NCBI GenBank assembly: GCA_002118135.1
Contig: BDIU01000088.1
Coordinates: 170,160-234,159 of the forward strand
Direction of reading: 5' to 3'
DNA: 64,000 nucleotides
Source of the DNA: Trebouxia sp. TZW2008
Taxonomy: Eukaryota > Chlorophyta > Trebouxiophyceae > Trebouxiales > Trebouxiaceae
Of this stretch, positions 7,801 through 61,982 are shown in pieces; positions within the stretch are counted from its first letter, which is position 1, and each line of letters begins with the position of its first letter. A model generated the notes under the pieces. That model did no database searches and was not told the origin of the DNA. It saw only the letters and a list, made by a program, of their open reading frames with translations. Position numbers and translations under genes: made by a program.

Positions 7801-10800
7801 ACTTGCAAAACTGCATAAAGCTCAAAGAACAACAGTGGCATCTTTGCTGCCATCAGCTGACCAGTCAATACTGATTGTACATGCCTCATATACCTGCACC
7901 GTGACGATGCATGCCTTGCGCTGGTGCAACACTTGCTCAATTTACATTATTGCACCCGACCCCTGTGCTACATATTGTATGACTTATGCAAACATTGCAT
8001 TGCTGTAGGGCGAGAAATCAAAGGGCAGAACAGCAACTCAAAGAGGCCTACTGATTGGCTCTTACAGCCACCCTCCCTCTTTTCTGCCACCCATCACCCC
8101 CCAGGGCTCCCCCCCTCACATTGATAGCACCCCCAGCCAGGCCAGGCAGCCTCACACACCACTAGTCTCAAGACCATCAACAGTGGTGTCAGCCAACTAT
8201 AGATATGCCTCAACACTCGCCACAGAAGCCAGCTCAACATGCAGTGAGCCTGAGCCATTGACAGCCTGCCAGTCTGTAAGCAGTGGCATAGAAACTGTAG
8301 AGCAGGAGTTGAGCAGTCAAAAGGCAGGAATGTCAAAGCGAGAGGCAGATGTACCGTCTGCTGTGGGCAATGAGGAGGCTGGAAAGGCAAAAGGGAGCAG
8401 CCGAACGTCAGGCCTTCTGAAGCAACAGGCAGCCTCTGAGTCTGGAAGGGCAAGCTCAGGCCTGCAAGCCCAGCTGCGCCTGCAGCATCCCTTCACGCCC
8501 CTGACAGCAGCAGTGCAGCAAGACCTCCCTGCCAAACCCCTCAGGGGTCTCAGCAGGGGTCCCCAAAGCAGTCCACCCTGTGTGCAACAGCCACAGCTAC
8601 AGCAGCAGCAACAGCAGCAGTCACGGCAGCTAGCACTGCAGCAGCAGAAGCAACTGCAGGCACAGTCTGTTGAAGAATGTCAGCTGCTCGCATCTCTGCA
8701 GAGACTTGATGTTCAGCTGGGCGTTGCGCACCCTCAGACTGGCTCACCCCAACATGCAGCGCACCCCAGCATTCTGTCTGAGCAAGAGGGCGAAGCCAAC
8801 TGCTCTAACACCACCCAGGATGCACCACTTAAGGAGCCCACAAGCTCAAGACAAGCTTCAGTGCGTGCTGCTAAGCACAGACCGCGCATGCGGAAGCAGC
8901 CAAGCGCCCTTGAACAGCCAAAGCCAGTACTGAAAGAGCCCTCAGTGCAAAGTGCATCAGGCAGCATTGCGTCAGTCAGACGTAATGCTGTGCCTATTAG
9001 AAGGGGAGCTTGGCCTCCACCGCCACATCCAGAGCAGGGCAGGGGCTCAAAGGCAGAAAGCAGGCCAAGGACAGAGGGCAGAACAGAGGGCACTTGCCCT
9101 TCTGCCTTGCCCTCACAGCAGGGCAGCAGCAGCAGGGCAGATGGCAGTGCCAGGGGCGTTTGCTCTTCAGCTGTGCCTTCACAACAGGGCAGTACCCCTC
9201 AGGCAGGCAGCAGGAGACAGACGGGCAAGGCCAAGATGAAGAAGCATGGCCCAGGGTCCACAGCTGCAGGACCAGGGGTGCTTGACAGCGGGAAGGATGT
9301 CAGCAGTTCAGCAGAGGAGCGCTTGCTGCAAAGCTCTCTAGCAAGGCTGGATGCTCGTCTGTCTAGTTTGGCTGCCAGATGCACAGGCAAGTCTCTGCAT
9401 GCTTCTGACAACTGGCGTGATGAACGCTGACATGATGATAGCTGGCACTTCTGTATTCGCATTTCATTAAGGTGCAGGCAAAGGCGTTTTGCCTTGAGCA
9501 TGCAGCGGATGCTTGTCTCCCGCGTGTCAGCTTGACGTAGGTGCTTAGTGTACAGAAGCGCTATCTTGTCTGGCTGCCAGATGCACAGTCGAGCCTTCAT
9601 GTGCTGCTGACAACTGGAATTGTCACGGCTGACGAGTCTGCAGTCACACTGCACAAATGGGCAAGCATCATTTTGGTCGCTCCAAGCAAAGACAGCCTGC
9701 AAAAAAATGAGCATCTTGAAGGTCCCTTTCAAGCAAAGGCGCGTCACTTTGAGCATGCATTGAATGCGTTGAATTCAGGACGCTTTTTGCTGCAGCTCAG
9801 CTTGAAATAGGTGTGCAACGTTTAGAGGCACTGTCTAAAGTGGCTGCCAGATGTACAGTCAAGCCAGCAAAGGCTGCTTGCACCAGCCCAACGGCATTGG
9901 TCAATGCTGTAGTTGCTTGCACTGCCACGAGCATGCAAGTCCATGCTGGATCAAGATGGAGACAGTTGATTGCTTCTGTACGTACCTAGATCGGCCTGCT
10001 GAGAGCCTGCCTAGCCCACGTTCACAATGAATCAATGAATGAAGATGTTTCAGAATTCTGTGCAGTTGACTATGAATGCGCTGGTGAACACAACCTGTTG
10101 ATTGCATTGCTCCTGAAGAGAGGTCCATGGCAAACAGAAGCCTCGTGTATATGATGTCCGTCTCTAGTGAGCAGAACGAAGTGTCTGGTTCTGACCAATT
10201 TACTCGCATAGTCTTTCTGTATGAAGGCTCACAAGGGCGACCCCCCGCAGCCCCTGCATTAGCCCCACTGACCAGGCAGCCTTCCTCCTTTCTGCCCCCA
10301 ACCTCCCCTTCCAGCACACCCCATGGCTGCCTTCCGCCCTTCCCATCAGGAGCAAACAGAGGGGCTGAAGCTGCCCATCGAAGGCTGCCTGGGTCTTCAA
10401 ATGGCAAAGTGCGGCCCAGTCCATCTGGAAGCCCACTGCAACTGCCGAGGCTGCAGGCGTGCCCATCTGTGGCTTCAGCGCCTTGTACCTCTGGCCTGAC
10501 ACCCTCTAGAAGGCACTCAGGTGGGCATGCATGCAATTCTGTCATCGACATGATTGCTGTTCTTTACTGTGGCTGTTCCTCTTCTGCTGACACGTCTATA
10601 GGCGTGCCCATCTGTGGTTTCAGCGTCTTGCATATCTGGGTCGGCAGCCACTCAAAAGCATCCAGGTGAGCATAAATAGGAATACATTCATTTCTGCGTA
10701 TGATTGCACTTCTGCTTAGTCCCTTGGCATCCTCATCCTCATCCTCATCTGCTTGTTGACCATCTTTGGTGTCTTTTTGTGTTGTTTCTCTCCTTCTTGC

Positions 10801-12038: not shown

Positions 12039-12620
12039 CTTATGTGTTTTGTCTGATTTGCAAGCCACAATGTCTTATGAAATTGTTTGTACAACTGTAC
12101 TCCTCAAAGTATTCTCCAAGTACCAATTGTGCTTGCCATGACATCGCTAACCAAACAGACCTGCTGTACAAACGACGCTTGCTCATGATGGTGCCGTTGC
12201 TGTTGCTTTATCTGTGTGCGATGCTTGAAGGTGTTGCTGCTGTGAAAATTTTCGGTTAACAGTGAAACAGGAGCAACAACTCAGCAACAACTAATTGTAC
12301 TCACCACCAGATGACTTTGTTGATGTCTCACTCTGCATTCTTACTGGTGACTTCGTTGGAGACATAGCAAAAACGTAGACGTGTCCCTGTCTTGTCTATG
12401 TATGGAGACAGCTTGCACAGCATGCTTAGTGGCATTCAGCAGTCTCTGATGCCATCACTTCACGGCAACAATACAACAAAAGGTGTTATCCCAAAACAGG
12501 ATGCTTCTGCATTTGGAACGCTGACATGTAGCTCACTCATAATCCGCCGACTCAACACTACTGACTGCGAGGAATGTGAACAACATTTGTGAAGAGCTGC
12601 AGCCAAACATGCTCAATTCA
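12039..12620. other. Convergent 3' flanks; no gene seen
   Basis: This stretch separates the plus-strand Q-rich gene from the minus-strand hydrolase, whose 3' ends face each other. No coding-like frame or known RNA was found, so it probably holds the two 3' untranslated regions. Confidence 0.5.
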
Positions 12621-13815: not shown

Positions 13816-13898
13816 GCTGCCGGAGTCCGGGACTCTGCTGCAACTCGCACTGCACCCCAGGCAGCAGTATCTTCTGCCTTTTCCGACTTGAACGTGCA
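13816..13898. promoter_or_regulatory. Compact bidirectional promoter region
   Basis: Only 83 bp separate the ATG of the minus-strand hydrolase (13815) from the chosen ATG of the plus-strand nucleotidyltransferase-like gene (13899). Regulatory sequences must therefore be shared or overlap the coding regions. An in-frame ATG at 13809 would make the two coding regions overlap. Confidence 0.45.
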
Positions 13899-15480: not shown

Positions 15481-18400
15481 TCAGTAATGATCTGCAATAC
15501 AGTGACTCGTGCCTGCGGTGTCTCTGGCAATCTCATAGCAGTTAGCTGTCCTTCCTGAAGGTAGTGTGGTTTGTGCCTGTAATTGTGCACGTTGCAATCA
15601 TTATGCCGTTCATGTTGAGATGCAAAGTCTCAATGCAATCTCCACTTTTGACCAGATGATGCACATGCATGCTGATTGCCATCTAAACAAGGTGTCAGAG
15701 CAATGCTGTGGCTAAAGAACTGTTTGCAAATGCTGACAGCCTGCGGTGTGATCTGCCTGCCAAGGCTTGGACGTAAGTCTATATTATGCATTTGCTGCAT
15801 GCGTGATCATGCCTATAAGCAGATAAACAAGAATGCAAGGTTGATGTTAGCATTTGCAGGAGCTGCTCGCAGATGCAGCGTGTTGCCGAGTGTCAGACCC
15901 AGATTGATGAGCCGCCCCAGCTTTGCTTGGTACATGCAACAAGTGACACGCCCTATGCAACAATTCAAGCAATTGCTGTCAGCAATGATGCATGAAAGCT
16001 AGGCTGCATGCCCACACTCAAGGGTCAGACATGTGCCTGCACTTAGGCAAAGGTTACCAGGTCTAATCCTGTAGAAAACTTGGCTTGCATACATGTTTGA
16101 CGAGAATCTGAAGAACATCTGGTGCTCTCAAGGCAGCTGTGCATCACGTCTGATTCTGCATCTGGAATGCCAAAAGAATGTAAAAAGCAACAACCTTATT
16201 ACAACTGTTTGGGGAAGATTGAACCAAGCATCAAATCAGCTGAACAGGTCTTGGAAGCTGTTTGACGACAGTTATTTCAGCAAGGCTGCAACAATACATC
16301 ACTACTTAGGTGGGCACAACAAAGTCTCTTGGTTTGTTGGGCTGCATTTCAATCCACGAATAACCTAAACCCGCTGCTCAACGCCAACTGAGCCCTGAAA
16401 GAGAGGCTGCAACCTTATTCAGACCAAAGGCAGCCTTCATTGCTTGCTTATTCAACTTAAAAGTCCAACAAGAGAGTGAGCTGAGTGACTTCAATTATGG
16501 TCAACTTGACTGTCTTTATTGGTGGTCAAGGGGTCTGCTGAGGCCATGACTCAGCGCCTCAGTAGTTGTGAGGCTGACCGGTCAGAACCTGCATTGCATC
16601 AGCTGGTCATCTATCTGCTTGCTGAACAGCATGTGTCTAGACACATTGTGCAAGAACGCGTGGCCATGATTGCATTTGCCCCCAGTAACTACACAGTAAG
16701 CACAAAGAACAAGCCAAAAGCATGCTGATGCCGGACCAAGCACTGCATGTTTGCTTTATGTCACAAGTCAGTATTGGGGATTAAACAAACAATGACTACG
16801 CACAAGCCAGTATGTACCTGTGCTAGATGAAGCCAATGAGGCTTGGCTTGCGTTCTTGGCATGACCGCTGCTTGCATCCTGCTCCTCGTTTGCATCTATT
16901 GCCTGCAAGACACGTGACATGTCAATGCTCAGCCAAGCTGCATTTGGCAAAGTAACAATCTACAGAATAATCAGTGATAGTCCCTGCAACAACTGGATTA
17001 CCAGGCATATCACTTCATGACATGCTGCAAGCAATGCTCAGGTCACATCAACTACTTGAATTTGCAAAGAGAAAGTTTCATTGCAGCAGAGCGCACTCCA
17101 ATCATGCTCTGGCTCACCCATCTTCAGCTTATGTACAGGCACATACAGACTAACAGCAAATGTGTTGAGATGCTTGCATGCTGGCTGGGCACTGTGCTCA
17201 GCCTCCACGCTGTAGCCATGGCAGCACTGCTCAGACATTCTGTGCTTATGTATGTCATGACAGCAATGCTCAATAACATGCAGAGGCATACTATAGACTT
17301 ACAGCAAATGTGTTGAGATGCTTGCGAGCTTGCTGAGCATCAGGGGCAGCCTCCAGGCTGTAGTCATAGCCACGACGGGTAGACTGTGTGGACAAAATGC
17401 TTTCAGTGCGGCCCAGATCCCTGAGGGGAGCCCTCCTTGCACCCCCTGGCCAAGCTGAGCTGGGCTGAGGGGCTGTTACATCTTCAGACAGGGCATAGTT
17501 GGGCCTGTTGTTCCTGCGCTCTTCCTCCTCTTCAGCAGCCTGCAGACGTGTCAATGCTGATTAACAGGGAGATGCTGTGTCATGCAGGTTGTGGCCAAGG
17601 GTTTCTTGCTCCCATAGCCGTCACAAAGATGAGCCAGACCATGAAATGCTACATTTCACAGTGAAGCAGGCAAGACTTGCGCATCCAATCCCCAAATGAT
17701 GTATGCTGACGAGTGTTCATGATGTTCCAACTCATGATGGTAGTGATGCTGTCAAACACAGCTTGTTGAGTCAGCATATGCAGCGCATTGCCTTGTTTGT
17801 CTGCCCCATGATAGGTGCTGAACAGCCACAGCTTGCCATAGCCAAACAACACTGACTTGGACAATGGTGCAAACTAACAAGCAGGCTAAGTTGGGGCATT
17901 CAGGATGACGAAGTCACCTGTGAGAAGGCAAAGAAGCCTCCGTGGCTTCTCTTGGTGCGGCCACCCTCACTGCCATCCTCAAATGCCATGTTGGTCTCCA
18001 TCAGAAGGTTGGCGTGCCTGCTGCGCGCTCCTGACGAAGAGGTGAAGGCAATGGATGCCAGCCCACCTGCAAGTCAAAATCAGAAGCATCAACGCCTGCC
18101 AGACTTGCCACTTCAAGTGCAAAACCTCAACCTTTTCAGCATGTATGATGCAGGTTGCATGACGGCTGGTCACCGCAGCAGCAACAGTCATGGCACAAAG
18201 TCATATCCAAACTGGCAGACTGAAAGCAAAGTGTAGACACTTGGATGTTTCTGCACAACTGTCTGGAGATGCTGACCTGAGCGGTTGCTGGCTCGGCTGT
18301 CTGCGCCAGAGCTGGTGACTGTGCTGGCAGTGCCCTGAGAGCTGCCCCGCCTCCAGCCCTTGCTGATCCTCTTCATCAGCCCACCCTGCAAACACCAGAG

Positions 18401-30932: not shown

Positions 30933-33900
30933 ATGGCAGTCACAGAGCAACCTCGCGAGCGATCACACAAAAGAGAGCGTAGCAGAAGCAGAGACAGGCA
31001 CAGCAAGCGCAGCAGACGTAGTCCTGTTACTGAAAACGGCAGGGACTCAAGACGTAGTCACCGTAGCCGCAGCAGGGAACGACACCGCAGCAAACGCGAC
31101 AGCAGTCCTGATCGAAGCAAACCACTTGATTTTGCCGCCAGACAAGCTGCAAGGGGCGGTCCTGAAGACGCTGCCACAGGTAAATCAGACCGGGATGCTC
31201 AGCGAAGCAGCAAGCACTCCCGATCTGACAGTAGGGATGTGAGAGTGTCTAGACACAGCAGGGAAAGAGATGACGGAGATAGATACAGGAGAGACAGCGA
31301 CCGAGGTCGTGACAGTGGTAGAGCTCGCAGCAGAGACAGGCACACTGACAGCAGAAAGCCTGACTCAGATCAGCCAGCTAACCTGCCTGGTCCACCCTCT
31401 GCTGACCGTGATGATCCAGCTCCTGCCAAGAAGGTCGAGCCTCTCTCCCTTGAGGAGCTTCTGAGGAAGAAGCAAGAGGAGCAAGCAGTGTTGGCTAAGG
31501 TATGTTGCTACCTGTTCAGAGAGGCCAATCATCATGCATTGCTTTGCAAGCGATGGCAAGACAGCAGGGGCACTGCAAAAAAGCACACTTGAGCAATGGG
31601 AGACATTTGGTCTGCCTTGCAGCTTGTACAGAGCAGCTCGTAGAAGGCCTGCGAACGCCGTTGACCAGTGCTAGGTGTGTTGCCTGTAGCTGATCTCTCT
31701 TTGATGCTGCAGCCCAAGTTCTTGTCAAAGAAGGAGCGCGAGGAGCAAGCTTTAAAGCGTAGGGAAGAAGAGGTTGAGCTGCAAAAGCAAAAGTAATAGC
31801 TCCTTTGCTGCTGTCTGAGCTGGTCTGAGTAGGCATTCATCATACATACAGCATGCATGACAGAGTACTTGGCTTGCAATGTGCATCACCAGAATTTCTT
31901 AGCTAGTGCGCGGCCAGACAAATTGCATATGCCTCGGAGTCCTTGATCTTTGCCAAAGTTGGTCAGACCAGCCCTAAGTGGGTGGTTAGCCCAGTGATTG
32001 CATGCAGACAGACACAATTGCAGCATGCTTCTGAGGTCTTGTGAGGCCATTGTCAGCTCTTTTGTCAATCTCAGCGATTCTCTACAGTTTGCAATGCCTC
32101 AATCAGAACTGCCGCCAAGTTGCTTATGGCATGCAGGCAAGCCCAGTTGCAGCGAGGGCATGAGGACTACCTGTCCATTGGCTTGCAAGTAGCTTGCCAG
32201 CTTGTCTGTCAACCCCAGAAGTCTTGCATACCGTGACTCAATGAGCACTCCAGTCGCGAAGCATGTGCCATGCAGGCAAGCTCAACTGCAGCGAGGGCAT
32301 GAAGATTACCAGTCCATTGCAAGACGGGAGCAGAGGGAGCAGGAGAAGCGGAGAATTGACCAAGCCAGAGACGCTGAGCGCAAGAGCCGTGAAGAGGTTT
32401 GCATACATTCCTTGCTGCATGCTTTGCTTTCTGCATGCTTTCTTGCTGCATGCTTTTCTATCATTTGCATGCACAACTATCTCCTGCAGCTGCAGTACAC
32501 ACCAGCCAAGTCAATGGTACAGTGACTTCTCCTTGTAACGACTGCTTGGTTCCCAAGAAAGTTGTTCTTACATCGAATTGTCCTTACTCAGAGGTGCCAT
32601 TGCAGTCGGAATGCAGTGATTGGGTTCCATTTACCTTGTCCTTACAGCGAGAATGTCCTTACATCAAGTATCCCTGCAAAGAGAAGTCACTGTACCTGCT
32701 GCAGGATCATGCACAGGCTGCTCTGTCAATGTGCTCCAGGCAAGATTGCTCACCAACATGTACTGCTCTGTTGAGCACTTGTGAGCACATGGGTCTGCAC
32801 GTCTGCAGAGCAAAGCGTGTAGAGGCTCAATGTTCTTCAGATTGTGAACTATGACGCCACAGTCTATATCTCCTGTCATCTGTATTCTGTTTGTGGTGGC
32901 CACAGGCCTGCACCTACATTTGCACAAGGCATGCCAATGTGGACTCCTGCCTTACCAAAGTGGAGATTCAGTTCATAATGGCGAGCCATGTGCAACAGTA
33001 TGCCCTGTGTCGAGGTTGCTACAAACAGAACAAGGATGCCAAACACATTGTTTGTCATCTCACATAGCTCGTAACGCTGGCTGCACATTCAGGTGCAATC
33101 TGCCTGCTGCAGTTGTAATGTGCTTTCCGGGCTGCCTCTGTAGACACAGGCTCCCGCTATGGCACCTAGCGACGTACGGTTTTTTTCGTTTTTCTTTTTC
33201 TGATGCGCTGCAGCTGGGCATGCACCTTGCTGCACCATCACTGTCTTCCAGTCAGAACAAAAGTGAAGTCATCAGTGCTTCTTTGAGTAGGTCATAAATG
33301 CTCACTCTACACATGTTTCACACGCTTCAACTTGTTTTCCAAGGGAACAAGTTTAGGGTAAACGTTTGGGACATTCAGCTTCTGATGCAGACTTTGATCT
33401 GACATATTGTTTTCAGTAAGACGGTACGTGGACTCTCTTGAAAACGTCTTTATGACCCCTTGTTGGGTTTCTATGACAGTAAAGATTGATAGATCAATCC
33501 ACTGATTGATTGACTGATTGATTGATTGATTGATTGATTGATGACTGCAGGAGCGGGAGCGGCAGCAGATGGCTGACATGATCAAGAAGCAGTACTTAGG
33601 AGGTGAGAAGCTAAAGAAGAAGATGCTGAAGCCCTCAGAGAAGTTCAAGTTCAACTTTGACTGGGAGGCTGGGGATGACACCTCCAAGGACCTGAACCCT
33701 CTGTATAACAACACTCATGAGGCCCAGCTGCTGTTTGGACGTGGCTTGCGTGCTGGCGTGGACAGACGTGAGCAGAAGAAGGTGCAGGCTCCTTCACATG
33801 CCTGGTCTTGCTGTGTCTGCTTCACATGCTGCTCCCTTCACAAAACGTCTCCTTGTATCATGCATTGCTCCTCTCTTCATACAAGAGGGCCCTTGCAACC

Positions 33901-36900
33901 ACAGCTGCTGATACAGGTTGTGTGCTGCATTTGCACACCGTTTGCTGTGCAATAGTCGCAAGTGATTATGCAGATGCCAGTAGCCTTTCCTCAAAGTGGA
34001 TATGTTGGATTAGATGTATTGAAGAAAATGCTGCTAGCCATTGTCAGCAGGCCAGTGTCCACTGCAGCGTGCAAGCTTGCCACAGACCTGAGTTTTCATA
34101 AGCAAGGGCAGAAGCAGTTTTCAGAGGGGATCTGTCCATTCCAGATAGAATCTGTCCAAACTGTATGGAGCAAACCCTGACTGCATGCTGTGCTTGCAGT
34201 TGGCTGCTGAGCATGAGCGGGCCATGCTGATGAAGATCCGCCAGTCTCAGGGCATCATTGAGACCAATGAAGACCGACAGCGTGACAAGGAGCGCAAGCG
34301 CGTCGCTGATAGGTCAGTCCATGCATGGTTCCTCGTGTCCAATAGCACCTTGCAAGTGTGCGTGCTGATGACATGGCAACAGAGTGTTCTCACAGGTCAG
34401 CACAACGTTTGTATGCAGGCCTGTATTCAGGAGGTGGTTTCTGCTCTGCACAAGGCTACGCTCTGACTCCCTCTTGTAGTGCATGTCTGGACTCAAAGCT
34501 TGTTTGCTGTCAAAGTCGGGATGCCTTGGCTACCACTGTGAGTTGGGAAGTACTCATTTTGTGCTTCAGCTAGCTGGCAAATCAACACAACCTGAGTGCC
34601 AATCTGCTCACACAGTTTGAACCCAGGCAGTCCAATTCTGACAGCCAGAAAGCATAGACTGAAGACATTCGCACCAACCACGGGGCGGACAGACTTAGTG
34701 TACTGTTCATTTCAGGGATCAGGTCTGCAAAATACTTACACATTGCAACTGATGCCTGCGGTTTTCACAATCACACTGCAGTGCTTCACGCTCCCACATA
34801 TTGCGCAATGCGCAACAAATGCTGATTCCCTGGCATGCTGTGCTTCGTTCAAAACGGCACAAACATTGGTAAAGGTATTGTGGTCAAAATGTAGCTTTGA
34901 AGACATGCGCAAGAAAGCTTTCCTGTAAAGTGATGAAAGTATAAACGGAGGACTCCTGTCTGAGTGTGGTAAAGAGATGAGGATATGCACAATTGTAAAC
35001 ACATTCAAGTGTAGTCAGAGAATTCCTTCTTGTGACGTTACAGGTTTGAGGACATGCGCAAGGAGAAGCACTGGAGTGAGAAGAAGCGGGAAGAGATGAC
35101 AGAGCGTGACTGGCGTATCTTTAGGGAGGACTTCAACATTGCCTACAAGGGCGGCCAATCTGGCTTGCCCATCAGGAACTGGGCTGAAGCCAATCTACCT
35201 GAAACCCTCATGCAGGTATGGCCATCCCTAACTGTGGCATGGCAGCAGACCAATTAATAATGTCTTTCCACTGTGCACAGCAGCAGACAAACTAGTAATG
35301 GCAGGTCAAGTGAAGTAGTCATTATGTGTGGACTGTCACAGACAGATGTGGCTTGATGTTGATCAAAAACTGGGCAGAAGCCAACCTGTGTGAAAGTCTC
35401 ATGCAGGTATGCATGTGTCCACACAACACTTATGTAGGTTCAAAGCAGCCCCCATGTTTGTATTTTGTGTGACCTTTACCTTGCGCCTCATGCAGTCAAG
35501 GCAACTTCCACATGGCCCCAAAGTCAGGCCCAGCTTGATTGTCAATATGTAAATCGCGCTGAGCTAGCATGTCGTGTAATGCGCGGCTGCTGCTTGGTGC
35601 CTCATGCAGGCCATCAAGAAGCAGGGCTACAAGAAATCCTTTTGCAACATACGTTTTGAGTAGTTTGGTGCAATGCCCATGTCAAGCTCCCTTTTCAGGA
35701 TCATTGCCAAGCTGTTGAGATTTTACGTGACTGCTGCCTTGTGCCTCATGCAGTTAGCCTGGTCTTGACATGGCCTCAAACTATGCTCAGTTGGCTTGTC
35801 AATACATTGCTTGAACTGCTCACTTGTACCAAGTCAGCAAGTAGTGTCAAGCATGACTGTTGCTTGCTGTCTCGTGCAGGCCGTCGAGAAGCAGGGCTAC
35901 AAGAAGCCCTCGCCCAATCTAAAGTTTCCTAGTCTCAAACCAGGCACTATGTTGAGTGCCCATGTTGAGCTGCCCCTTTCACCATCTATGCTGAGCTGTT
36001 TGTGTAACATGCAGTCACTTTTCGTGCCTCCTGCAGGCCATCGAGAAGCAGGGCTACAAGAAGCCCTCCCCCATTCAGATGGCAGCCATCCCCTTGGGCT
36101 TGCTCCAGCGTGACGTCATTGGCATTGCAGAAACCGGCTCAGGCAAGACAGCGGCTTTCACTCTGCCCATGCTGGTCTACATCATGAAGCAGCCCAAAAT
36201 GACTGAGGAAATTGCAGCAGAGGGGCCGTACGCCGTAGTCATGGCGCCCACTCGTGAGCTGACTCAGCAGATTGAGGAAGAAGCAGTAAAGATGGCGGCC
36301 AACACTGGCTATCGGATTGTGTCAGTCGTGGGTGGTCAGTCAATTGAGGACCAGGGTTTCAAGCTGCGCAAGGGTTGTGAGATCATCATTGCTACTCCTG
36401 GTCGCTTGGGCGACTGCTTGGAGAAATCCTACGCCGTGCTGAACCAGTGCAACTATGTTGTACTAGATGAGGCTGACCGCATGATTGACATGGGTTTTGA
36501 GCCCCAGGTCATGGCTGTGCTAGATGCCATGCCATCAGCAAACTTGAAACCAGATGCCGAAGACGCTGAGCTGCAAAGCAACAAGGTGTACAGAACGACC
36601 TACATGTTTTCAGCAACCATGCCGCCTCAAGTCGAGCGGCTGGCCAGGAAGTATCTACGCAGGCCTGTGGTAGTGACCATAGGCTCAGCAGGAAGAGCCA
36701 CTGACAATGTGACTCAGCGCGTCATGATGGTCAAGGAGAATCAGAAGCACACCATGCTGGACAGCGAGCTATCGTATGTAGATGACAAGCGTGTCATCAT
36801 CTTTGTGAACACCAAGAAGCAGTGTGACAATGTCTTCCGCCACTTGGAGCCTCAGGGATACAGCTGCACAGTGTTGCATGGTGGCAAGGATCAGGCACAG

Positions 36901-40900: not shown

Positions 40901-43900
40901 CCAGACAAGTTTAACCACCGCCAACCGACTGGCAAAGTAAACATGCATGCTTGGTCGTGTCAGTGTTGCACACACTACACATGGTTGCTGTGCTTGAGAC
41001 CATAAGGATTTCCGTCTGAACAAGCTCAGGGTGCAGGCCATGCATGGCTAAAAGGTCAACGCATGGGGTCAAAGTGCCATGCAGGCAACACAAGCGCTCT
41101 ATAGCGACTGGGCATGATGCTAGAGTTTGAGCCAAGGATGTGGGTGCCAGAACAGCATTTGCAAGGTGTGACAAAACAGATGTGAAACAAACCTTGAAGG
41201 TGTGCAGCTTGCCAGCAGCAAAGGTGTAGAAGGTTTCCAGCACTTGCAGCTGCACCTCCAAAGGATCTGATCCCTCCTCCTACAAGCAGCAAAAATTTGA
41301 AAAGCGCTGGCAGGGCAATCCACTGTGTTATGATACAAAGCAGCGTGATGAGCCACAGACTTCATTTTGCTGCTTGTCTTTGCATGAGGTTGTCATTGTT
41401 GCTTTGTGGATTTCTTCAGTACAGCATGGCATGCTGAGGTAGTGTGATGGAGCAATCGTCACTCTGTTTGGCTGCTTGCATGGCAACCATACTCCCATCA
41501 TTGACATTCTGACAAGTTGCACAGAGAGTGCTAAGCATCAGCTGAAGATATTGCAGCAATGTGAACATGAGCAGCAGCAGCAGCATCATGGACAAAAGCA
41601 CTTGAAGACACTGCAGCAACATGAGTAGCAGCAGCAACATGCAGTCGACAACGTTCAGTCACATGAAAAACAGCAACAGAGACAGCAGCAACAGCATAAG
41701 CTGAAGACACCATAGCAACAAGGAAAGCAGCAGCAGCAGCAGAAGCAACAACATGAGCTGAAGAGATTGTGGCAACATGGACAGCAGCAGCAGCATGGGC
41801 TGAAGACATTGCAGCAACATGGACAGCAGCAGCAGCATCAGAATAGCAACAGCATGAGCTGAAAAGCTTGTAGCAACTTGGACAGCAGCAGCAGCAGCAG
41901 CAGCAGCAGCAATAGAATGATGTTTGGCTGCTGACCTTGCGTCCGCTGGCCTCCTCTTTTGCACAAGTTTCCCTGGCACTGCGCTCCCCAAAGTCACGCA
42001 CTGCTGTCATGATGGCGTCAGCATTCAGTGACACGCTGGCTTGGTTCAGAGTCAACCTGCGACCAGTACTAACTTCAACGGCCGCAGGTTGGCTGCTTAG
42101 TCACTGTCTTGCAAATGCCTCAAGCAGGGTCATGTGGAAGCATGCTTCAGCACAAGACGTATCAGACAGCAGCTGTGCAGTGTCAGAGGCAAGTGCATGG
42201 CTGCCGCACAGCATTAAAACCACAGATGCGTCTGAGGGAGCAATCATCAGTCCTGGCTGCGTTTGGCTGAAGATTGTTGCTTTTGTTTGATGTAGAGAAG
42301 CTATGCACACAAGGGCAACAAGTTCGTAGCCACTTACTTCCAAACATGTTCTGGGTTCTGTGTAGTTAACAAACATCATACATACCAAGACCATTGCACA
42401 ATATGATGACGGCTCCAAAACAAGAATGCAATTTTAGATGTACATACTTGTGTCTGGGTTGTATATGCATGTAGCTTGTTTACACAAACGAGACATGCAT
42501 ACATTGCTACACTTGTATACGAGATCTTTTGGGGACAAAAGTTTACCTGGCTCTGACAGGCTTCAACAGCTGATGAGCAATGTGGCCGTCCATGAGGGCG
42601 CGATAGTCAAAGGGGGCTACCCCCCTGGCCCGGCAAACCATGTGGATGACCGATTCCCAAGCCTGGCACAAAGGACCCCACACCTCTGCTTCCTCATGCA
42701 ACCTGAACACCAGGGCAAAAACTTTCGAGACAAACAGTTGGGTATAGTCAAGGCATTCCAAGACTGCTGACTTGTATATGTGTCGTATACACTCAGGAGC
42801 CTGTGAATGCAGAAGCAGTGCGGGCAAGCAATCTATGAATTGCTGCTACTGTGGCATGTGGCAATGTGACTGCAAACTCCAAAGGCGCGCAGGCGTTGCG
42901 CTTGACACTTGACTTTGGCGTCAGTGCTATGTTCAGAGGCTTTGGCTTGAATATTGCCGTCAGTGAAGTGTGCTACAGCCCTTCCTAGCTTGCAGCAGTA
43001 TGACTTGCCGCAGACTTCAATCAGCAGTTATAGGGAAACTCGTTCATGCTGATGTGAATGCATGAGCATTTTGCGCCAGGTGATGGCGCACCTGCTGTAG
43101 TAAGCTTGCAGGTCAGAGATGGTGCAGGGCGCTGGGTTGGCCAGCATGCCATTCTTGCCGGAAAACAGCTCAGCCAGCACCTGTGCTTGCTCCAGGGTTA
43201 GACCTGTAGCAGCAGCCTCACATCTGTTAAGCAATGCCGTAGCATGCCATTCATTTCAGACAATGGCTCAGACAGAACCTCATGTTGCTCCAGGCTTAGA
43301 CCTGCATCAGCAGCCCCTTGAGATCGACCGCGATTTTAGCATGCAATGGTTGAGGATACAAAGCAGTCACTGATGGAAGCTTTGCCAGGCATACAAGTGT
43401 GCCTCACAGACTAGCTCACAAGTACTGCAAATCCAGCGCTGCAGCTCATTGGCGAATGCTGGCTCAACATGGCATGCCTGAGCAAACACGCAGGCGGCCA
43501 ACCAGAGCCTGTCCTCACGTCTTTGCCGCTGCCCAAGGCCTGAGGTCCTGTGAGCGATCAGCGTGGAAGCAGACTGATGCTTCTGTACATAGCTAGCAGA
43601 GTCGTGGAGCCGCATGTATAACATGTCAGCGATAATGATGAATAATTGGGAGAATCATGAAGCTCAGCAAGAGAGCTGGTAGATGTTATGCATACCAAGC
43701 ATGCCTCGTGCCTCCTGTGCAGCAGCATTCATCTGGGCTTGCTTGCGCGCATCTTTGGCACGGTTGCCAGCATCCTGCTTGAAGGCCAGCTCAGCATCCA
43801 GGGAGCTCAAAGGAGGCCCAACAATGGTGATCTCCCCTGCAATATCACTATGTTGTAGTCACTCTGAGCTGCTCTACTCACACAGTGCTGTAGTCATACT

Positions 43901-46900
43901 GTGCTGCTCTAATCACAGAGTGCTTTGCTCAACACTGTGCTGCAGTTGCTATGTGCTGGTGTCAAAGTTGCGCATGCTAGAGAATTCTTCCCAGGCATGC
44001 TTGCTGCAGCTGCCAGCCTCCTGCTTGAAGGCCAGCTCAGCACCGAGCGACTTTAAAGGGAGCCCAAGAATGGTGATCTCCCTTGCAAGGCCACTGTGCA
44101 GTCATGACACTGTAATGTAGTCCCACCATGCTATACTCATACCTGTGTACAGTGATTTTGCTTCAAAAAGTCAACATGGGCAGAGACAGCTGTCATCAGA
44201 ACAGTAGATGCTCGTGTGCCGTTTGGATTAGCTCACCATCCCCATGCTGACAGAATTGTGAGTCACATCTTACAGTTGAGCTGTGTAGACGACCCTGCAG
44301 CGCATGTCAGCAGGTATAGACCACAAAGCAAGCTTCACCTGTATATCTGCCACCTTGGCCTGACTTCAGAAGGCACTGGCCCAGCAACGGGCTGTCTTGG
44401 GTCACAGCCCCTGCCCTCATTTGGCAAGCTCACAACTTACCTTACATGTACAGCTAAAGCATCTGCACCTTGCGGTCAATGCGCGTGCATGACGGGCACT
44501 GGCCCAGTGCTTGAGCAGGCCTAGCAGCTTGGCTGCAGCACTCAGGGCAGCATTGCAAAGAAGGTGTAGCGTTTCTACTTGCAGCACTGCCAACAATGCC
44601 CAGAAACACACCTGCGAGTCGGCCTCCTTGAACTTAATCCAGAATGTACTGACACAGCTCCCAGGTTTCTCACAGCAAAATCAATGCCCACCCCACACAA
44701 ATAAGGTGCCCCCACAGCACGCAGCAGTATAGTTCACCTGCCACTCTGCCGCCTTGGCCTGAGTCCAGCAGGTATTGACCCAGCTCCTGTGGCAGCATGC
44801 CCAGCAGCTTCCGCTGCAGCACCCGCGGCAACACCGCAGACAGGATGTACCGGATGACTGTTTTGGGCAGGGGCACAGACGCACCAACTGCCCGCCTTTC
44901 CAGTGATAGTACCTCAAAGGTGGGCTTCACAGCTGTGTGCCAGCCTTGTACACTGCATCAATGACACAAGCCCGTTGTTGCATCATGCTGTGACTTGACG
45001 CAAATGACAGAATGCACCGGATAACCGTCTTGGGCAGGGGCACTGAGGCATCAACTGCTCGCCGTTCCAGCAACATCACCTCAAAGGTGGGCTTCACGAC
45101 CGTGTGCCAGCCCTGCACACTGGATCCACACTACCTTGTCACCCAAATCACCTTGCCTTTGGCTCAGCTGCTGTTGAAGCCATGATGCCATACAGCAGGC
45201 GTTGTTGTGAGGCGTGAGACCCCAAACAGGAGGCATAGCTTCAGTCTGCTGTGCCAGCCTTGCAGGCTGCATCAATAGCACAGAGGTATGTGGCAGCCAT
45301 AAGGCATTGCTATGAAGAGGGGGGCATACCATGAACCATTGTCTTGCTCTGCTGTGGAACTCCATGAGCAGCGACTGAAGGCTGGGTCTTGAATAGGGGC
45401 ATTCATGGTTGAACCATAAAACCTGATTCACCAGTGTGCAGCAATATGAAGCGCTTCATCTAAAGAACGCCACAGATGGCCCTATGAGACCTGTTATTTG
45501 CAAATGAAACTTTTTTGCATGTTTGTATTGACATACTCCTCATCAGCATCAGCAGCAGCAGCAGCAGCAGCAGCATTTTGGCAGCAGCAGAAGCAGCAGT
45601 AGCAGTAACAGTAACAGTAGTAGTAGCAGCAACATACGTGCAGCACAGTGACTAAGTTTTGCTGACCTGGTGAACTCAAACTTGAAGGTCAGCAGCAGCT
45701 CCACCTCCACAGAGATCTCGGCAATGGATGCATTGGGCACTTTGGTGCCCTTCTCTCCTATCAGTCCAACTTCCGACAGGCGCACCACGAGAAATAGCCC
45801 TTTGCGGTTGGCTGCGCTGCCACTGGCACTGTCTAAGCCTGCCTCACTACCTCTCTCAGTGACACCTTCCAAGAACTCACCACCTGCACATGCACATCAG
45901 GGTGGCTGCCAATACAGGCGTTGACAACACTAACATAGTGCAGAACGTTCCTCAACATGGTTTCCTCTAATGGCTATGAAGCCGTAGCTCAACAACACAA
46001 CGCAAATATGCAATGCAGACCCAAACAACATTGCTGCGGGCTTCAAGCAACAGCATGGCTATGTTTTGCTACTAAGGTTTTGGAAATCAGGACCAAGGGC
46101 TAATGCTTGCATTCAGTGCAAGAGGTCTTTGCAGTCACTCACATCAGTGCAGGCTCAAAGCAGCGCCAGCAAACAGCATGCATTGAGCATGCAATGAACA
46201 GCTGCAGCACGCCACATTTGTGCTTATTGCCATTTGCACTTATGGTTTTTTTCGGTTATTGCCATTTGCCACACCTGTAATCCCATTGGCCACCTTTCTG
46301 AAAGCCCCTTTGAAGCCTGCTGCTGCTTCTTTGACAGGAAGAAAGCCAGAGGCTGAACCTTGGCGGCTATAGGTGCGAGCATTGTCAGCATTGTCATCAT
46401 ACACATCTGCATCATCATCTGCTGGCCCCTGTGCCTGTGTCAAACAAAACACAAATTGACTGACAGGCTGATTGTTGCGCTGATGCCAGAGGCTGAGCCC
46501 TGATGGCTGTAGGTGCGAGCATTGTCAGCATTGTCATCATACACATCTGCATAATCGTCTGCTGGCCCCTGTGCCTGTATCAAACAGATCACATGCTGAC
46601 ACTCCCAGTGGCTGGTGCGCCAATGCCCGCTTTTGCACTTGCACATGCCCACCATAGCACCTGGAAGCAGAATGGTACACGATCCTAAGCTTTGATGGTG
46701 ATGCAGACAGCATGTCAGCAGAGCATCACACCAACAATCTGGCAGCACTGTGCTGCTTTCGGATATTGCAAAGCAGGCTGCACACAGCTTAAACAGCATG
46801 AGCTTCTTAGCCTGCCTATGTAACACAAAGAACAACCCACAACTGCTGTGGCCCAAGTGGCATTGGCGTTTTCAGCTGAAGAAGGCCTGTGCAAAGTCAG

Positions 46901-49900
46901 CACAGTATCAAGCTGTCAATGTTCAGGCCATCATTTCAAGTTCAGACGCCCAAGCAAGCAATAGCACTGGGCAAGCAAACTTTGTACCTATCAATGTAAA
47001 TGTAGCTTGTGTAGACCTCCAAAAAACATGCTGGTGCAGGAGATGAGCTGACCTGAGATTGAGCCCCAAAAGAGCTGTTGCGGCTGAGGTGGTGCAAGGG
47101 GGGTTCTTGGGGGACAGCCCCTGCCCCCAAGCCAGGGCTGCCCTGGTAGTCTGATGTGTGCCTGGGGGTGCTTGCTGTATCATACTCCAAGTCCTCAGTG
47201 GTTGGTGTACGCGGCGTTTCTGGCCCTGCTTCAGCTTCTGTTGCTGCTTCCAAGACATCCTGCAACATTACTAGTCAGTCGATCAGTCGCTCAGTCAATC
47301 AGTTTGTCAGTCAGTCAGTCTGTCTGTCAGTGTGCCTGTGAGTGCTTGCTGTATGTTACTTCAAGTCTTCAATGGTAGGAGTACGTAGCATTTCCGGCCC
47401 TGCTTCCGCTTCTGTTGCTGCTTCCAGCACGTCCTGCAGCGTCAAGCGGTTTTGCTTTCAGTGCTAGTGGCCTGAAATGTGCCTTTGACTTCCTGTGCCT
47501 GTGGCCTGAGGCGTGCCTAATGCCTGCTGCCTGTTGCCTCATGACTTCTGATAGTGTGATGCACGCATGCTGCTGCAAAGCCTAGTCATGTCACAAGAAC
47601 CTTCCATTTCAAGACCTAGCTACTTATGAGAACCCAATGCTTGCCCAGCTATGTTCACATTGGGACATGTGAACATAGCTGTGGGCGTTGAGAACAAGCT
47701 GAAGAGAGAGATTACGCGCTTGATGAGGTCTTTTGAGCCAACCTGTATGGATGCCAATGCGGGGTGGGCAACAGCTAGTTGCTCACTGTACAAGCAGTAC
47801 TGTACCACTTCTGCTGCACCTGCATGACCATTGCCTGGGCTATTTAGGGAGTCTGCCCACTGCTCGTAGCTCCTGCCAGCAGCATGGCTGCCAAATGCAA
47901 AGGGGTTTGCACAGAGCACAAGCAGCCACTGAACCTGCTGCACCCGCAGTATGTGTCACTGATGAATGAACATGTCAGCCACCCTTCATGGCATTCAGTG
48001 CAGATCATTGCCAGGCTCTTGCATTGCACGACGCAAATGGGACAGTGTACCTGCTGCACTTCTGCCGCACCAGCATGACCAGTGCCCACGCTGTTGAGGG
48101 CATCCGACCTCTGCCTGTGGCTCCTGCCAACAACATGGCCATCATATGCAATGCGTTGTTGCACAAAGCACAAGGCTTCACTGTACCTGCTGCACCTTTG
48201 CCGCTCCATCATGAGCATGGCCAACAGAGCCTGCGCTGTTGAGGCAGTCTGATCACAGCGTGTGGCAGTCTGTACCACTCGTGGCTGAAGATGTCAGCCA
48301 TCCTGAATGATTGGCTCCAGTGCAGAACCATCAGCGGGCTATCACACAACTCACACCGACAGTGTACCTGCTGCACTTCTGCCGTCCCAGCATGACCAGT
48401 TCCAAGAGAGCCTGCGCTGTTGAGGGCATCTGACCACTGCTTGTGACTCCTGCCAGCAACATGGCTGCCGTATGCAATGGGGCTCGCCACCAGTCTGGAG
48501 TTGGTCGACTTGCCCAGCAGCTTCTGAGCTAGCTTACTGCCTTTCTTGGAACTGTCATCAAAGGCATCTGGGGAGTAGGCCGGTCTTGATGCAGGTAGCC
48601 CTGATCCTGCATTTGCAGTCGTATGGTGACAGCAGTGTCAGCTTCTCGCTGCAAGTATGCAAGTCTATCGTTGTTTCTGTCAGCTACGTGGCTGCCGTAT
48701 GCAATGGGGCTCGCCACCAGTCTGGTATTGGTCGACTTGCCCAGCAGCTTCTGAGCTAGCTTACTGCCTTTCTTGGCGCTGTCATTCAAGGCGTCTGGAG
48801 AGTAAGCTGGCCTTGATGCAGGTAGTCCTGACCCTGCACTTGCAGTCATATGATGAGAGCAGTGCCATTTTCTCATTGCAAGTATGAAAGAGCGTTCTTG
48901 CTTTCGCCAGCAGCGTGGCTGCCATATGCAATGGGGCTGGCCACCAGCCTCTGGTTGATTGACTTGCCCAGCAGCTTCTGTGCTAGCCGACTGCTCTTCT
49001 TGCAGCTGTCATCAAACGCGTCCAGGGGGGTAGGCTCGCCTTGATGATGGCTGCCCTGACCCTGCAGTTGCAATTGCATGGTGAGAGCAATGCCAGCTTC
49101 TCATTGTAAGTGTGGAAGATCATTATGCCTTCTGTCAGCAGCATGGCTGCCGTATGCAATGGGACTGGCCACAAGCCTGGTATTGGTTGACTTGCCCAGC
49201 AGCTTTTGGGGCAGCTTGCTACCCTTCTTGGAGCTGTCAGCAAAGGCGTCTGGGGATTAGGCTGGCCTTGATGATGGTAGCCCTGACCCTGCAGTTGCAA
49301 TGACAGCTTGCGGCTATATTGAAAGGACGTCAACAAACAGACAATGGGAATGCAGCTTGCTTTGCTGCCTGTCTTGAGGGTATCGTTGCAGATGTGTCAG
49401 GCTCAGGCTGGCTTCAACAATGCGATCCCTTGACACGGCTTCACAAGCAAGTGTAATGGCAATGATGCATGCACAGCATTGACAGGCTGCGTCTAGCAAT
49501 CACCTGACTGACATGCAGGCAATGCAGACCTTTGCTAGGACGACGTAGCCAGCACCTCCTCTTCTGTTGAAGACTGCCCTTCAAGCACCAAAGAGCCCAG
49601 GGACATGCACAGTAGTGCCAACAGGCTGCATCTAGCGTTCACCTGACTGGTTTGCTTGAGGATGGCGGCAACGCTCCATGGGGCCTGCATGCTGCTGCTT
49701 GCACTCTGCCAGGGGCCTATGATCAAAATTCAGGACTGAAGCATGTACAGCATCATCAGAAGCAGCCACGTGGGCCTCACCTGACTGGTCTGCTTGAGGA
49801 TGGCGGAACCTCTCTTTGGTGCCCAGCTTCTTCAGCATTCTGGTGGCTAGCCGCTTGCTCCTGGATTGGTGCTCTGGGGGCACCGCCCCAGGACCCCTGG

Positions 49901-58631: not shown

Positions 58632-59175
58632 CTTGCCAAGTCGGTCTTGCAATGCCTATTTCAGCCGATGTGTGTCTACTAGACAGGTCTGATCATGCGT
58701 TGAGCACCCTTCCTGTTCATGCTAGCTATGCGGTGAAGCTGGATCATCGGTCGGTGGATGACTAATGCTTCCCCGGACCCCAACTTGAGGGGTCCGGGGC
58801 TCAACGGCAGCAAGCTGGCGGCAAATGCTTCCTGCCATCAGTCAGTAACAGCGCGCCGTGCATACGAGCGAGCGACCCATGCAGTCAGCGCCTCTGCTCG
58901 GTCCGTCTGCCATGCAGACCATGGCCTGACTTTATGATACAGTTGGCATGAGCAAATTCCAAATACTGACAGCCTGAGGCAGGTGCAGATTGCTTTTGCC
59001 ATACGACTTTCATTTACGGCTTGAGTCCGCTGCTGCAAGGTCCAGGCTTTATCAGATGACACAGCAACCTGCAGCCGGCGTGCAACATGAAAAATGAAAT
59101 GGTTCACTTTAATTGTCACCAGCTTGGTCAATGCGCCCTCAAAAAGGACGGCCATCAATATATTGCCGGCCTCGA
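58632..59175. promoter_or_regulatory. Epsin 5' flank with a GC-rich hairpin
   Basis: This CpG-rich stretch upstream of the epsin ATG fits its promoter and leader. The far end abuts the stop codon of the Y3IP1-like gene, so its 3' untranslated region must also fit here. No additional coding frame is convincing. Confidence 0.45.
58771..58799. repeat. 11-bp perfect GC-rich hairpin
   Basis: Arms CCCCGGACCCC and GGGGTCCGGGG with a 7-nt loop (AACTTGA) lie about 140 bp upstream of the epsin ATG. If transcribed in the epsin leader, it would form a strong structure able to affect scanning. It could also be a termination signal for the gene on the far side. Confidence 0.8.
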
Positions 59176-61982
59176 CTACTTGAGCGAGTTCAAGAACAAA
59201 ATGGTGACCACCAGGATTCCAATGATGACAGGCAAGGCCGACAGGCCATACAGAAAACTCCAGCCGACCCAGTCGGGTAAAAGATCTGCCAGCCCCTGTG
59301 GTGCTTCAGACTTGTCGCGTCCTATGGGCCGGCGGGGTGGGTTGTTACTCCGCTCTGTTGTTGACGTGCTTGGAGTTGTACCTGCCAGAACACCAGGTTT
59401 CAAGGGCCACCGCTTGGCATGCAAGTGAAGGTTTGAAAGCACACGCTGTGTTATGTGCAAGCCAGTCTGCATATTTCTCCAATCAGACAACGTATGTGCG
59501 GTTGCAAAGCATGTGCTGTGAGTAAGACAGACCTGCCCAGCATTTCAGCATTGCATTGACATTTCCATGGAAGGCAAGCAAAGCATTTGCAGTTGCATGC
59601 AAGCTGGCCTGGCAAGACAGAACTTGAAGAGCGCACACCAAGCGCTTGTGCCATCACATTTTGCATGTAGTATTGTTTTGATTACTGCATGCAACACTCA
59701 AGGCGGCATTTGCCTGTATGAGCTTGGGCAACACAGTCACTGAGTGCTAGAACGGTCAGCACCAGTGGGTGTGATGCCCTCGTATTTGGCCGCCGCTTCG
59801 TCTTTTGCCTCCGTCTGGTGTCGTCAGACATGCTTCCTCATGCAACTATATGCAATTCATGCGTGAGACAACAGAAGGTCAGCAAGTCATCGCCATTGCA
59901 TGCAACACACAACAGCAGCATTTGCCTGAATGAGCTTGAGAAGGCTACACAGTCACTGGGCGCCAGAACGGTCAGCACCAGTGGGTGTGATGCCCTGGTA
60001 GTTGGCTACAGCCTCACCTTGCCCTGCTGTCCAGTCCTATTGGCGTGCTTTCTCATGCACTTGTATACAATCAACAGGTGGCACAACACAAGGACAGCAT
60101 TTGCCTGAAGGAGGGTGGGCAGGCAACACAATCACTGAGTGCCAGAGGGGTCAGCACCAGTGGGTGTGATGCCCTCGTAGTTGGCCACAGCTTCGCCTTG
60201 CCCTGCTGTCTGGTCCTCATCAGCATCCAACCAGGGCCAAGTGATGATCTCATTGTACAGCTCCCGTAGAGCTATCCTGTCTTTTGGTATTCTGCCGTCA
60301 ACCACCTCCATCAGAGCTGCAGCCATCTCATCACGTGACACACCACCAGCATTCTCCTGCCACAGAAAACATTAAAGGGTCAAACAACAGCAGCAGCAAT
60401 CACACAAGGACAAGTCCATCAGAGCTGCTGCTGCCTCTTGACGTGATGCAGCATTGGCATTCTCCTGTCACCAAGACAAGATGGATAGTAAGCCAGTTGC
60501 TAATTTTGTTACACAGCTTATGCAAAGCTATCCTGTCTTTTGATACTCTGCCGTCAATCTCCTCCGTCAGAGCTGCAGCCATCTCGTCACATGACACGCC
60601 ACCAGCATTCTCCTGCCGGTCAGAGCAAGATGTCTATGTGGTCAAGCGCTAAACACCAACAGCAATAGCATATCAAACATTCTTGGGCAGTTGCTACAGG
60701 TGTATGAGGCCCAGATCCTACTTTGCAACAAGACTTTCATTGGGGCATTGGTTGTGTTAGTAGTACGTGATGTATTCAGCTGCATACAATTGATGCCTCA
60801 CCGCCGATTGGTGGAAAACTTCACTCAACTGTCAGCAACAAGTCCGGCAACACAGCATTGCTGTGTGAGGTTGCATGGTGAGATGCACTTGCCAGTTACA
60901 GCTTGGCTTTGACAATACTGATGGCAAGTCAGGCTCTCAATTGCATACCATTGCTTTACAAAGTCAGCCAGCAGGCAGCTGACTCTGTCAGCAGGAACGG
61001 GTCGCAAAGTGTCAGCAAAACACGTGGCAGTGCTGGTTTGCAGTTAAGGCATTCCAGTGACAGGCAGCTTTGTTGGGAGAGACAGCAAGAAGTGATCAAG
61101 AGATTGCAGCAGTTGCATTCACCTCAATGCCCAGAGCCTCTTTTCGTTCTCTGCTCCTGGGGTCTTCTATGGCAATGGTCAGCTTGCATTCATTGATAGA
61201 CATGTCACGCTTGTCTTTCAGCTGCGACGTAGCCTTCATAATGTCTCGACATAGCTTCTTGGCTTGCTGCATGCACGTCCAGCTTCTCTTAGCATTCAGA
61301 AGCGTGTGGCAATACAAAGAAAAGAGAAGTCTATGCCGTTAGGCGTCATAACAGGAGCCTCTGTTTGTAGAGGCAGCTCAGGATTGCTGCTCTCAAAGTA
61401 GCAGTTTGGCAATACAACAATGTGTATGGTCTCCACCAACTTGTCACAGTGTACGTGGCCGTATGCTGAGGGTCATAACACAAGTTTGTCAGGGCATGCA
61501 TTGCTGTTGTACCTCTTCAGAGACTTCACTCTCGCCTATGACCTTGTTTGGAAGTACATCTGGACTGGCTACTGCGCCGCCTATATTCAGAGAAAGCTGT
61601 AAATTGACTGCAGTGAGTCTGCTAAGCCAACCTGTCCTGCTAGCAAGGCAGTGGTGACTGATACAGCTGCTTGGACTCACCGCTCTCTCTGTCTGCTTGG
61701 CTGCGCATGAAATCTTCCATTTGCTGTTCGAGCTCTTCTTCGCTAAGATCTGTCTCGTTTTCCACAGCTCTTACCCTGCAGTCAGGAGTGTTATGAGGTT
61801 GTCGCTGTCGAAGCCGAGTCGTTGGGAGTACCCATTGCTTGCCTTTGTCTTTTGCTGCGCTGATGTTGCAAAAGGGCTCTGCGTTGCAGAGGTTGTGCTA
61901 CACGCTGAGGCGCTGCAGCTTGCACTATACCGCATGCATGTTGAGTCGCGCAGTGCCCAGCAAATAGCTGCATAGTTGCCAT
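59176..61982 (-). CDS. Probable Ycf3-interacting protein 1 (Y3IP1)-like chloroplast protein
   Basis: Draft exons: 61982 to about 61820, 61775-61681, 61580-61513, 61266-61123, 60356 to about 60136, and about 59395-59176. Some junction phases (exons 1/2 and 2/3) do not fit, so edges are approximate. The N terminus (MATMQLFAGHCATQ..., basic, no acidic residues) looks like a plastid transit peptide. Then follow an acidic stretch (ETDLSEEELEQQMEDFM), a conserved-looking block (INECKLTIAIEDPRSRERKE), a block reading SRDEMAAALMEVVDGRIPKD and ALRELYNEIITWPWLDADE, and one C-terminal membrane helix (FLYGLSALPVIIGILVVTILF). From memory this order matches land-plant Y3IP1 (CGL59/CEST), a thylakoid factor working with Ycf3 in photosystem I assembly. 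I could not check this by alignment. Ghost copies surround the fifth exon on both sides. Confidence 0.5.
59740..60025 (-). repeat. Two ghost copies of the end of exon 5 of the Y3IP1-like gene
   Basis: The block TCAGCACCAGTGGGTGTGAT (plus-strand sense) and its surroundings in the exon end (60148-60185) recur at about 59755-59800 and 59966-60010. The following AGTTGGC and CCTTGCCCTGCTGTC sequences are also copied. Both lie downstream of the exon in transcription order. Confidence 0.85.
60405..60613 (-). repeat. Two ghost copies of the start of exon 5 of the Y3IP1-like gene
   Basis: At 60613-60500 the minus strand repeats the acceptor and first ~110 nt, still open, reading SCDEMAAALTEEIDGRVSKD against SRDEMAAALMEVVDGRIPKD in the exon. 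A more decayed copy lies at about 60467-60410. Both are upstream of the working exon. Confidence 0.88.

Follow-up and report, generated by a model that had tools for sequence, protein, structure and literature searches.

Tandem genomic duplication is, according to one review, the only proposed route of intron gain that has been demonstrated in vivo (PMC3443670). The review, which cites Gao and Lynch 2009 as well as Hellsten 2011, discusses the Rogers model, in which an intron is derived from exon sequence containing AGGT. One tandem duplication crossing an intron-exon boundary is described in a potato RdRp gene (PMC4974935), where it gave rise to a new intron and a changed peptide. Introner elements (PMC9860276) represent a further type of repeated intronic sequence, which is copied between genes.

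Intronic copies of exon edges, referred to here as ghosts, were noticed by a first-pass annotation of a 64,000-nt stretch of the genome of the green alga Trebouxia sp. TZW2008 (C85:170160-234159; GC 51%), hereafter called the window. As in the Rogers model, the ghosts point to local tandem duplication within genes that is tolerated since splicing takes out one copy; however, existing introns lengthen here and keep copies of either exon edge. As in potato, splice signals travel with a tandem unit that covers both intron and exon sequence, whereas many loci are involved rather than one gene, and the copies lie within existing introns. The ghosts also resemble introners in being repeated sequence in the introns of many genes, but the start of the PRP28 exon matches its own two ghosts and elsewhere in the genome only inner helicase-domain stretches (7 matches); thus, in a genome search conducted for PRP28 only, its ghosts did not behave as members of a dispersed introner-like family. 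Minisatellites located in introns form direct tandem arrays as well, with unit sizes that overlap those found here. Unlike minisatellites, most arrays described below consist of few diverged copies, include exon edges and exhibit a fixed polarity.

Single cases of this kind have already been published, and no genome rich in exon-edge ghosts was found in the literature searched. In particular, no report of widespread exon-edge fossils in introns was among the papers listed by searches of a library with few subscription papers. Of the words intron and tandem, neither occurs in one Trebouxia genome paper (PMC11523091), and in another (PMC12712428) intron appears once, in a reference title, and tandem 0 times. 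The same sources give genome sizes of 63-74 Mb with a GC content of 49.6-51.1% (PMC11523091) and of 69.1 Mb with 49.7% (PMC12712428). The source genome of the window is a draft assembly of 68.5 Mb in 527 contigs, and the loci fetched from it have a GC content of 48-52%.

The sample comprised the window, 20 gene loci of 10 kb each and five arbitrary loci placed at round coordinates, amounting to 314 kb for blastn; the 25 loci are located on 24 contigs, all different from that of the window. The gene loci were those with the most matches in a genome profile search with eight Pfam families, six of which supplied loci. They were picked for conserved multi-exon domains, and ghosts scored as matches may have lifted some of their ranks. 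Loci L001-L007 were excluded from every repeat count. In the 20 gene loci, 97 introns were modelled from Pfam-domain continuity; 12 of the 97 were removed on score or fit, and 85 were retained.

Self-comparison of the 314 kb by blastn revealed 235 direct and no inverted pairs at distances of up to 1.5 kb, grouped in 107 arrays, whereas no pair was detected in 260 kb of first-order Markov sequence. The identity of the paired copies mostly ranges from 62 to 90% (5th-95th percentile of the blastn set). Simulation demonstrated that this comparison is nearly blind to units shorter than 80 nt. Periods were determined with a method based on 40-base tiles, which was checked by simulation and still under-detects short old arrays; low-complexity tiles and single-tile clusters (124 of 503) were removed before counting. 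A downstream copy was present for 2,362 of 31,178 tiles, compared with 0 of 7,808 tiles in the shuffled control. The gene loci yielded 777 direct and 35 inverted matches among 9,768 tiles, the arbitrary loci 250 and 2 among 4,870, and a 50-kb control from E. coli 4 and 0 among 4,986. A looser search within the 85 introns returned 72 direct versus 13 inverted pairs. The view of the first-pass annotation that the process extends past the window is supported by local direct repeats in all five arbitrary loci and in 17 of the 20 gene loci, the 25 loci being spread over 24 other contigs.

The repeat content is patchy. Three of the 20 gene loci contain no local repeats (L011, L021 and L027, 0% of bases), while these make up 33% of the bases in L026 (C489:4165-14164) and 62% in L017 (C79:16935-26934). 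Approximately 25% of the 38,227 bases in the 85 introns lie inside local repeats. The window itself contains 43 direct and no inverted pairs within 1.5 kb, in 23 arrays. Copies abut at 46345-46627 of the window and in L008 and L026, where the units are alike at 0.85-0.90. In several other pairs, likeness over the remainder of the supposed unit does not exceed that of shuffled sequence (0.53 versus 0.51 for the pair of period 183 in L026). In the intron of that pair, further decayed copies appear to lie in between when the sequence is read by eye, and such intermediates would account for the missing likeness over the rest of the unit.

The position of the copies relative to exons is polarized. 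Exon edges were compared with adjacent introns by the Smith-Waterman algorithm and judged against length-matched pieces of other introns (p ≤ 0.0025). Eighteen of 85 introns hold, upstream of an exon, a copy of that exon's start, and 15 of 85 hold, downstream of an exon, a copy of its end, whereas wrong-way copies numbered 0 of 55 and 0 of 55 in the modelled introns. At p ≤ 0.01, 25 of the 85 introns contain at least one significant copy of a flanking exon edge, and the remaining p-values of this test give no hint of further hidden ghosts. The description of introns as packed with ghosts is thus too strong, as approximately 29% of the modelled introns carry them.

The same polarity emerged when 133 segments with domain support, which include some ghosts, were used as queries, which yielded 88 direct copies versus 1 inverted copy within 3 kb. 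After 17 of the 88 that overlapped their own query had been set aside, 71 were analysed: 37 lie upstream and contain the 5' edge, 21 lie downstream and contain the 3' edge (in one case the roles are exchanged, the query L008 4819-4977 being the ghost and its copy the real exon), and 8 touch neither edge. One copy lies downstream with the 5' edge, and its query (L009 6139-6273) is a ghost; the 4 copies that cover both edges all derive from queries outside the exon chains. Moreover, the 85 introns and their flanking segments gave 72 blastn pairs, comprising 25 acceptor-type, 17 donor-type and 23 intronic pairs, 6 that link the inner part of an exon to an intron on the expected side, and 1 that links a donor to an acceptor; 0 were wrong-way and 0 lay wholly within one domain-supported exon. 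Individual genes illustrate the pattern: the HSP70 segment 131-205 on C150 has shorter upstream matches at 131-168 and 132-167, the HSP70 segment 341-415 on C165 is followed by a shorter match at 369-415, and on C73 a kinase segment beginning at model position 118 has a shorter copy upstream that begins at that same model position.

In the window, the PRP28 gene provides the clearest view of such an intron. Read by eye, the intron at 35216-36036 (821 nt) contains one donor-side and two acceptor-side ghosts (Table 1). Moreover, its positions 35455-35753 align with 35713-36036 in a 330-nt match at 65%; taken together, these copies imply that most of the intron is copied sequence. The real exons, when joined, find named algal homologues at 74-76% over the full 527-aa query, the top named relatives being those of the Trebouxiophyceae Symbiochloris (75% identity), Myrmecia (76%), Apatococcus (74%) and Coccomyxa (75%). 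Two further relatives are 96-97% identical over 72-86% of the query, and in the related protein P0001 (97% identity) the real exons are joined without the ghosts. Protein-domain continuity and homologues such as these suggest that the outermost splice sites are the ones used. Elsewhere in the gene, a (TGAT)10 tract at 33503-33550 abuts the acceptor of the exon starting at 33551, which is an odd acceptor context.

Table 1. Exon edges, their copies and related arrays in the window (positions are those of the window).
Position	Strand	Feature	Basis or remark
7132..7565	+	array of period 111 inside coding segment	coding sequence here tolerates duplication
17131..17222	-	copy of 17278-17370, downstream of coding segment 17321-17548	3' edge, expected side
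32050..32180	+	copy of 32194-32319, upstream of coding segment 32301-32399 (PRP28 N-terminal part)	5' edge, expected side
35045..35215	+	PRP28 exon, source of the end/donor ghost	by eye; homologues
35362..35411	+	ghost of exon end 35171-35220, donor GT at 35407	82% identity
35594..35640	+	acceptor-bearing ghost of the following exon's start; exon-derived part from 35610	89% identity
35868..35919	+	second ghost of that PRP28 exon start; ghost exon part from 35880	90% identity
36037..37100	+	PRP28 helicase exon, real acceptor 36036/36037, end approximate	DDX23/PRP28, E 1e-131
43749..44147	-	start of coding segment 43676-43846 and upstream ghost 43995-44147	blastn and coding score
44334..45126	-	coding segment 44727-44930; end ghost downstream 44334-44385, start ghost upstream 45006-45126	
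46345..46627	-	start of coding segment 46252-46419 and upstream ghost, period 140, copies abut	
47806..49301	-	four-copy array, ~227-nt period, several coding-like copies, expressed copy ambiguous	sole wrong-way-labelled pair
49468..49842	-	end of coding segment 49752-49907 and downstream ghost	62% identity
59686..60666	-	coding segment 60141-60359; end ghosts downstream 59686-60038 and 59691-59827; start ghosts upstream 60415-60482 and 60492-60666	

Coding segments in the window were labelled by a codon-usage score trained on the other loci; segment ends are approximate, and in 38,227 bp of introns regarded as reliable the score wrongly called 5 segments. By this score, 16 of the 43 window pairs join the edge of a coding segment to a copy on the side named by the first-pass annotation. 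For 22 of the 43, no coding edge was labelled, in 4 coding-like sequence occupies both copies, and the remaining pair is labelled wrong-way. The 16 include one doubtful pair (10433-10773), in which the segments are on the minus strand where a plus-strand gene had been read. Of the approximately 30 ghosts originally listed for the window, about half were thus labelled independently, and the full tally was only partly reproduced, although the pattern itself was confirmed. Among the five genes said to contain them, ghosts are supported in PRP28, in the region at 38-54 kb and at the exon near 60.1-60.4 kb (putative Y3IP1-like), and only doubtfully in the Q-rich gene. The claim that polarity has no exception stands without a clear counterexample, since the sole wrong-way-labelled pair lies in the 47.8-49.3 kb array, in which the expressed copy is ambiguous.

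A Pfam scan located TSP1 in the 19.5-28.5 kb stretch, and scans of minus-strand frames found no domain in the 38-54 kb gene. An ENTH domain at approximately 57.97-58.37 kb on the minus strand (E 2.5e-24) marks an epsin-like gene beside this large minus-strand region. Rfam and tRNA scans of the window gave no matches. The most copy-rich array of the window, with nine copies of period 136, is situated at 50124-51336, where no coding sequence was labelled.

These patterns very probably result from undirected tandem duplication of units of mostly 40-200 nt, from which selection keeps those products whose extra boundary is spliced away. Short units would duplicate side by side in direct orientation, apparently regardless of genes. 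A duplication within a conserved coding exon would break the protein and be lost; one within an intron would be harmless. A duplication across an exon edge would create two boundaries and could survive if the original outermost boundary stays in use, the inner copy, together with the exon fragment and splice site that it carries, turning into intron. The splicing filter alone would then generate the polarity, with copies of exon starts upstream and copies of exon ends downstream. Each event would lengthen the intron, repeated events would build arrays, and the ghosts would subsequently decay neutrally. We infer both the tandem step and the role of selection in removing the other outcomes. Local tandem duplication hidden by splicing, as originally proposed, is favoured by the direct orientation, the short offsets, the polarity counts (18 of 85 and 15 of 85 versus 0 of 55 in both wrong-way tests) and the rates of decay. 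Moreover, the array inside a coding segment has a period of 111, a multiple of three, which fits the action of selection, although this is one case in a tolerant, low-complexity coding stretch. Less favourable to this explanation are the pairs whose likeness does not extend over the rest of the unit, the inverted copies that appear under looser settings, the wrong-way-labelled window pair and the modest excess of boundary-spanning pairs over random placement.

It might be supposed instead that duplication targets exon-intron boundaries, for instance via the CAG|G motif of both splice sites or via transcription-linked breaks, and thus constitutes a dedicated intron-growth process. We consider this improbable. 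Boundary-spanning pairs account for 42 of 65 intron-touching pairs, compared with a share of 0.47-0.56 expected when units of the observed size are placed at random in introns of the observed length, and the counts per intron (16 acceptor, 9 donor, 8 intronic) point in the same direction. However, since the real exon is constrained, boundary copies stay detectable for longer, and the excess is therefore not read as targeting; to regard boundaries as special would be an overstatement. Furthermore, 23 pairs are purely intronic, and arrays also occur in arbitrary loci and in the low-complexity coding stretch, which speaks against targeting.

Introns with ghosts are longer than those without (median 608 nt, n = 25, versus 322 nt, n = 60; Mann-Whitney p 2.4e-7), in agreement with the proposed intron growth, although longer introns offer more room for ghosts and part of the gap may be due to ascertainment. 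Decay was followed in 42 ghost-exon pairs with distinct ghost positions, several of which share an intron. Divergence rises from 0.124 at codon positions 1+2 to 0.236 at third positions and 0.256 in the intron part, giving a ratio of the intron part to positions 1+2 of 2.06 (bootstrap 1.59-2.60). Such values would be expected if the ghost changes freely, constraint on the real exon spares only third positions, and neither of the two intron copies is constrained. The splice dinucleotides are intact in 19 of 25 ghost acceptors (AG) and 13 of 17 ghost donors (GT), together 32 of 42 (0.76) versus 0.767 expected under free decay. A stop or an indel is present in 23 of the 42 ghosts. Thus, the data fit neutral decay.

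These figures also bear on whether the copies are retained for function, be it as alternative or decoy splice sites or as alternative exons. A splice-site model places 10 of the 17 donor ghosts and 13 of the 25 acceptor ghosts inside the score range of real sites, which at the level of sequence supports the proposed multiplication of splice sites (23 of 42). Such strength can be explained by recent common origin. Retention of the dinucleotides equals free decay, the exon parts lack extra coding constraint, and more than half are interrupted as noted above; a functional role is accordingly very unlikely, and for function of the ghosts, as for splice-site targeting, there is no good evidence. 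Among other intronic sites, 98 of 2,224 GT and 87 of 2,158 AG fall in the real-site range, a count that may include ghosts. Ghosts are therefore individually strong decoys, yet a minority of all decoys.

It is likewise very unlikely that the ghosts are decayed duplications of whole exons that were once mutually exclusive or repeated. The array at 47.8-49.3 kb, with several coding-like copies at a period of ~227 nt, would suit such an origin. However, all 4 of the 71 copies that include both edges come from queries outside the exon chains, whereas exons within the chains have copies of one edge plus flanking intron, on one side only; copies of whole exons could fall on either side. An assembly artefact (collapsed or duplicated haplotypes, or misjoined reads) might be suspected in a draft of 527 contigs but can be practically dismissed, as the copies are mostly 62-90% identical, differ in a codon-structured manner and are present in 5 of 5 arbitrary loci.

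By the tile method, the basic period lies between 40 and 200 nt in 129 of 153 arrays, and periods of 120-180 nt are the commonest. Specifically, 5 arrays have periods below 40 nt, 13 of 40-60, 12 of 60-80, 10 of 80-100, 13 of 100-120, 29 of 120-140, 19 of 140-160, 21 of 160-180, 12 of 180-200 and 19 above 200 nt (6 of them above 260). The lower shoulder (53 of 153 arrays below 120 nt) is a lower bound. In simulations, long units are detected at least as well as short ones, and thus the fall above ~200 nt is real in this sample. Nucleosomal and lagging-strand (Okazaki) fragments have sizes resembling the 120-180 nt mode, and a link to either is only suggested by size.

Sequence of another kind is present as well. 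A dispersed element of ~178 nt, possibly SINE- or MITE-like, is located at 32517-32720 and 23968-24172 of the window and occurs on both strands genome-wide. Of 1,411 candidates, 40 matches were scored, mostly at 81-86% over the first ~178 nt. One match (C431:38504-38683) lies inside a modelled CCT intron (L014 3423-3923), and thus additions other than ghosts contribute to intron length too. Further repeats of the window, separated by 2-47 kb, presumably represent dispersed elements (38635-38799, 39076-39186 and 52951-53121; 52495-52591 with 55089-55185; 9944-10032 with 56870-56958).

Under undirected duplication filtered by splicing, a bolder reading can be tentatively entertained, though we think it rather less likely than not to hold in full: this algal lineage would have unusually active duplication, with units capped near 200-260 nt (mode 120-180 nt), that steadily rewrites introns into layered exon-edge fossils, while the outermost splice site is reliably picked. 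Since boundary-spanning duplications would persist about as often as intronic ones, the spliceosome would have to take the outermost of several near-identical sites reliably.

Both intron growth and the choice among near-identical splice sites are open questions, usually approached via constructs or rare cases. If the proportion of 25 in 85 introns is typical, which is an extrapolation, the genome would offer thousands of natural examples of known polarity and size and of graded age. Gene predictors may mistake ghost edges for real exon edges. If the bolder reading is true, the Trebouxia genome would represent a natural experiment on splice-site choice.
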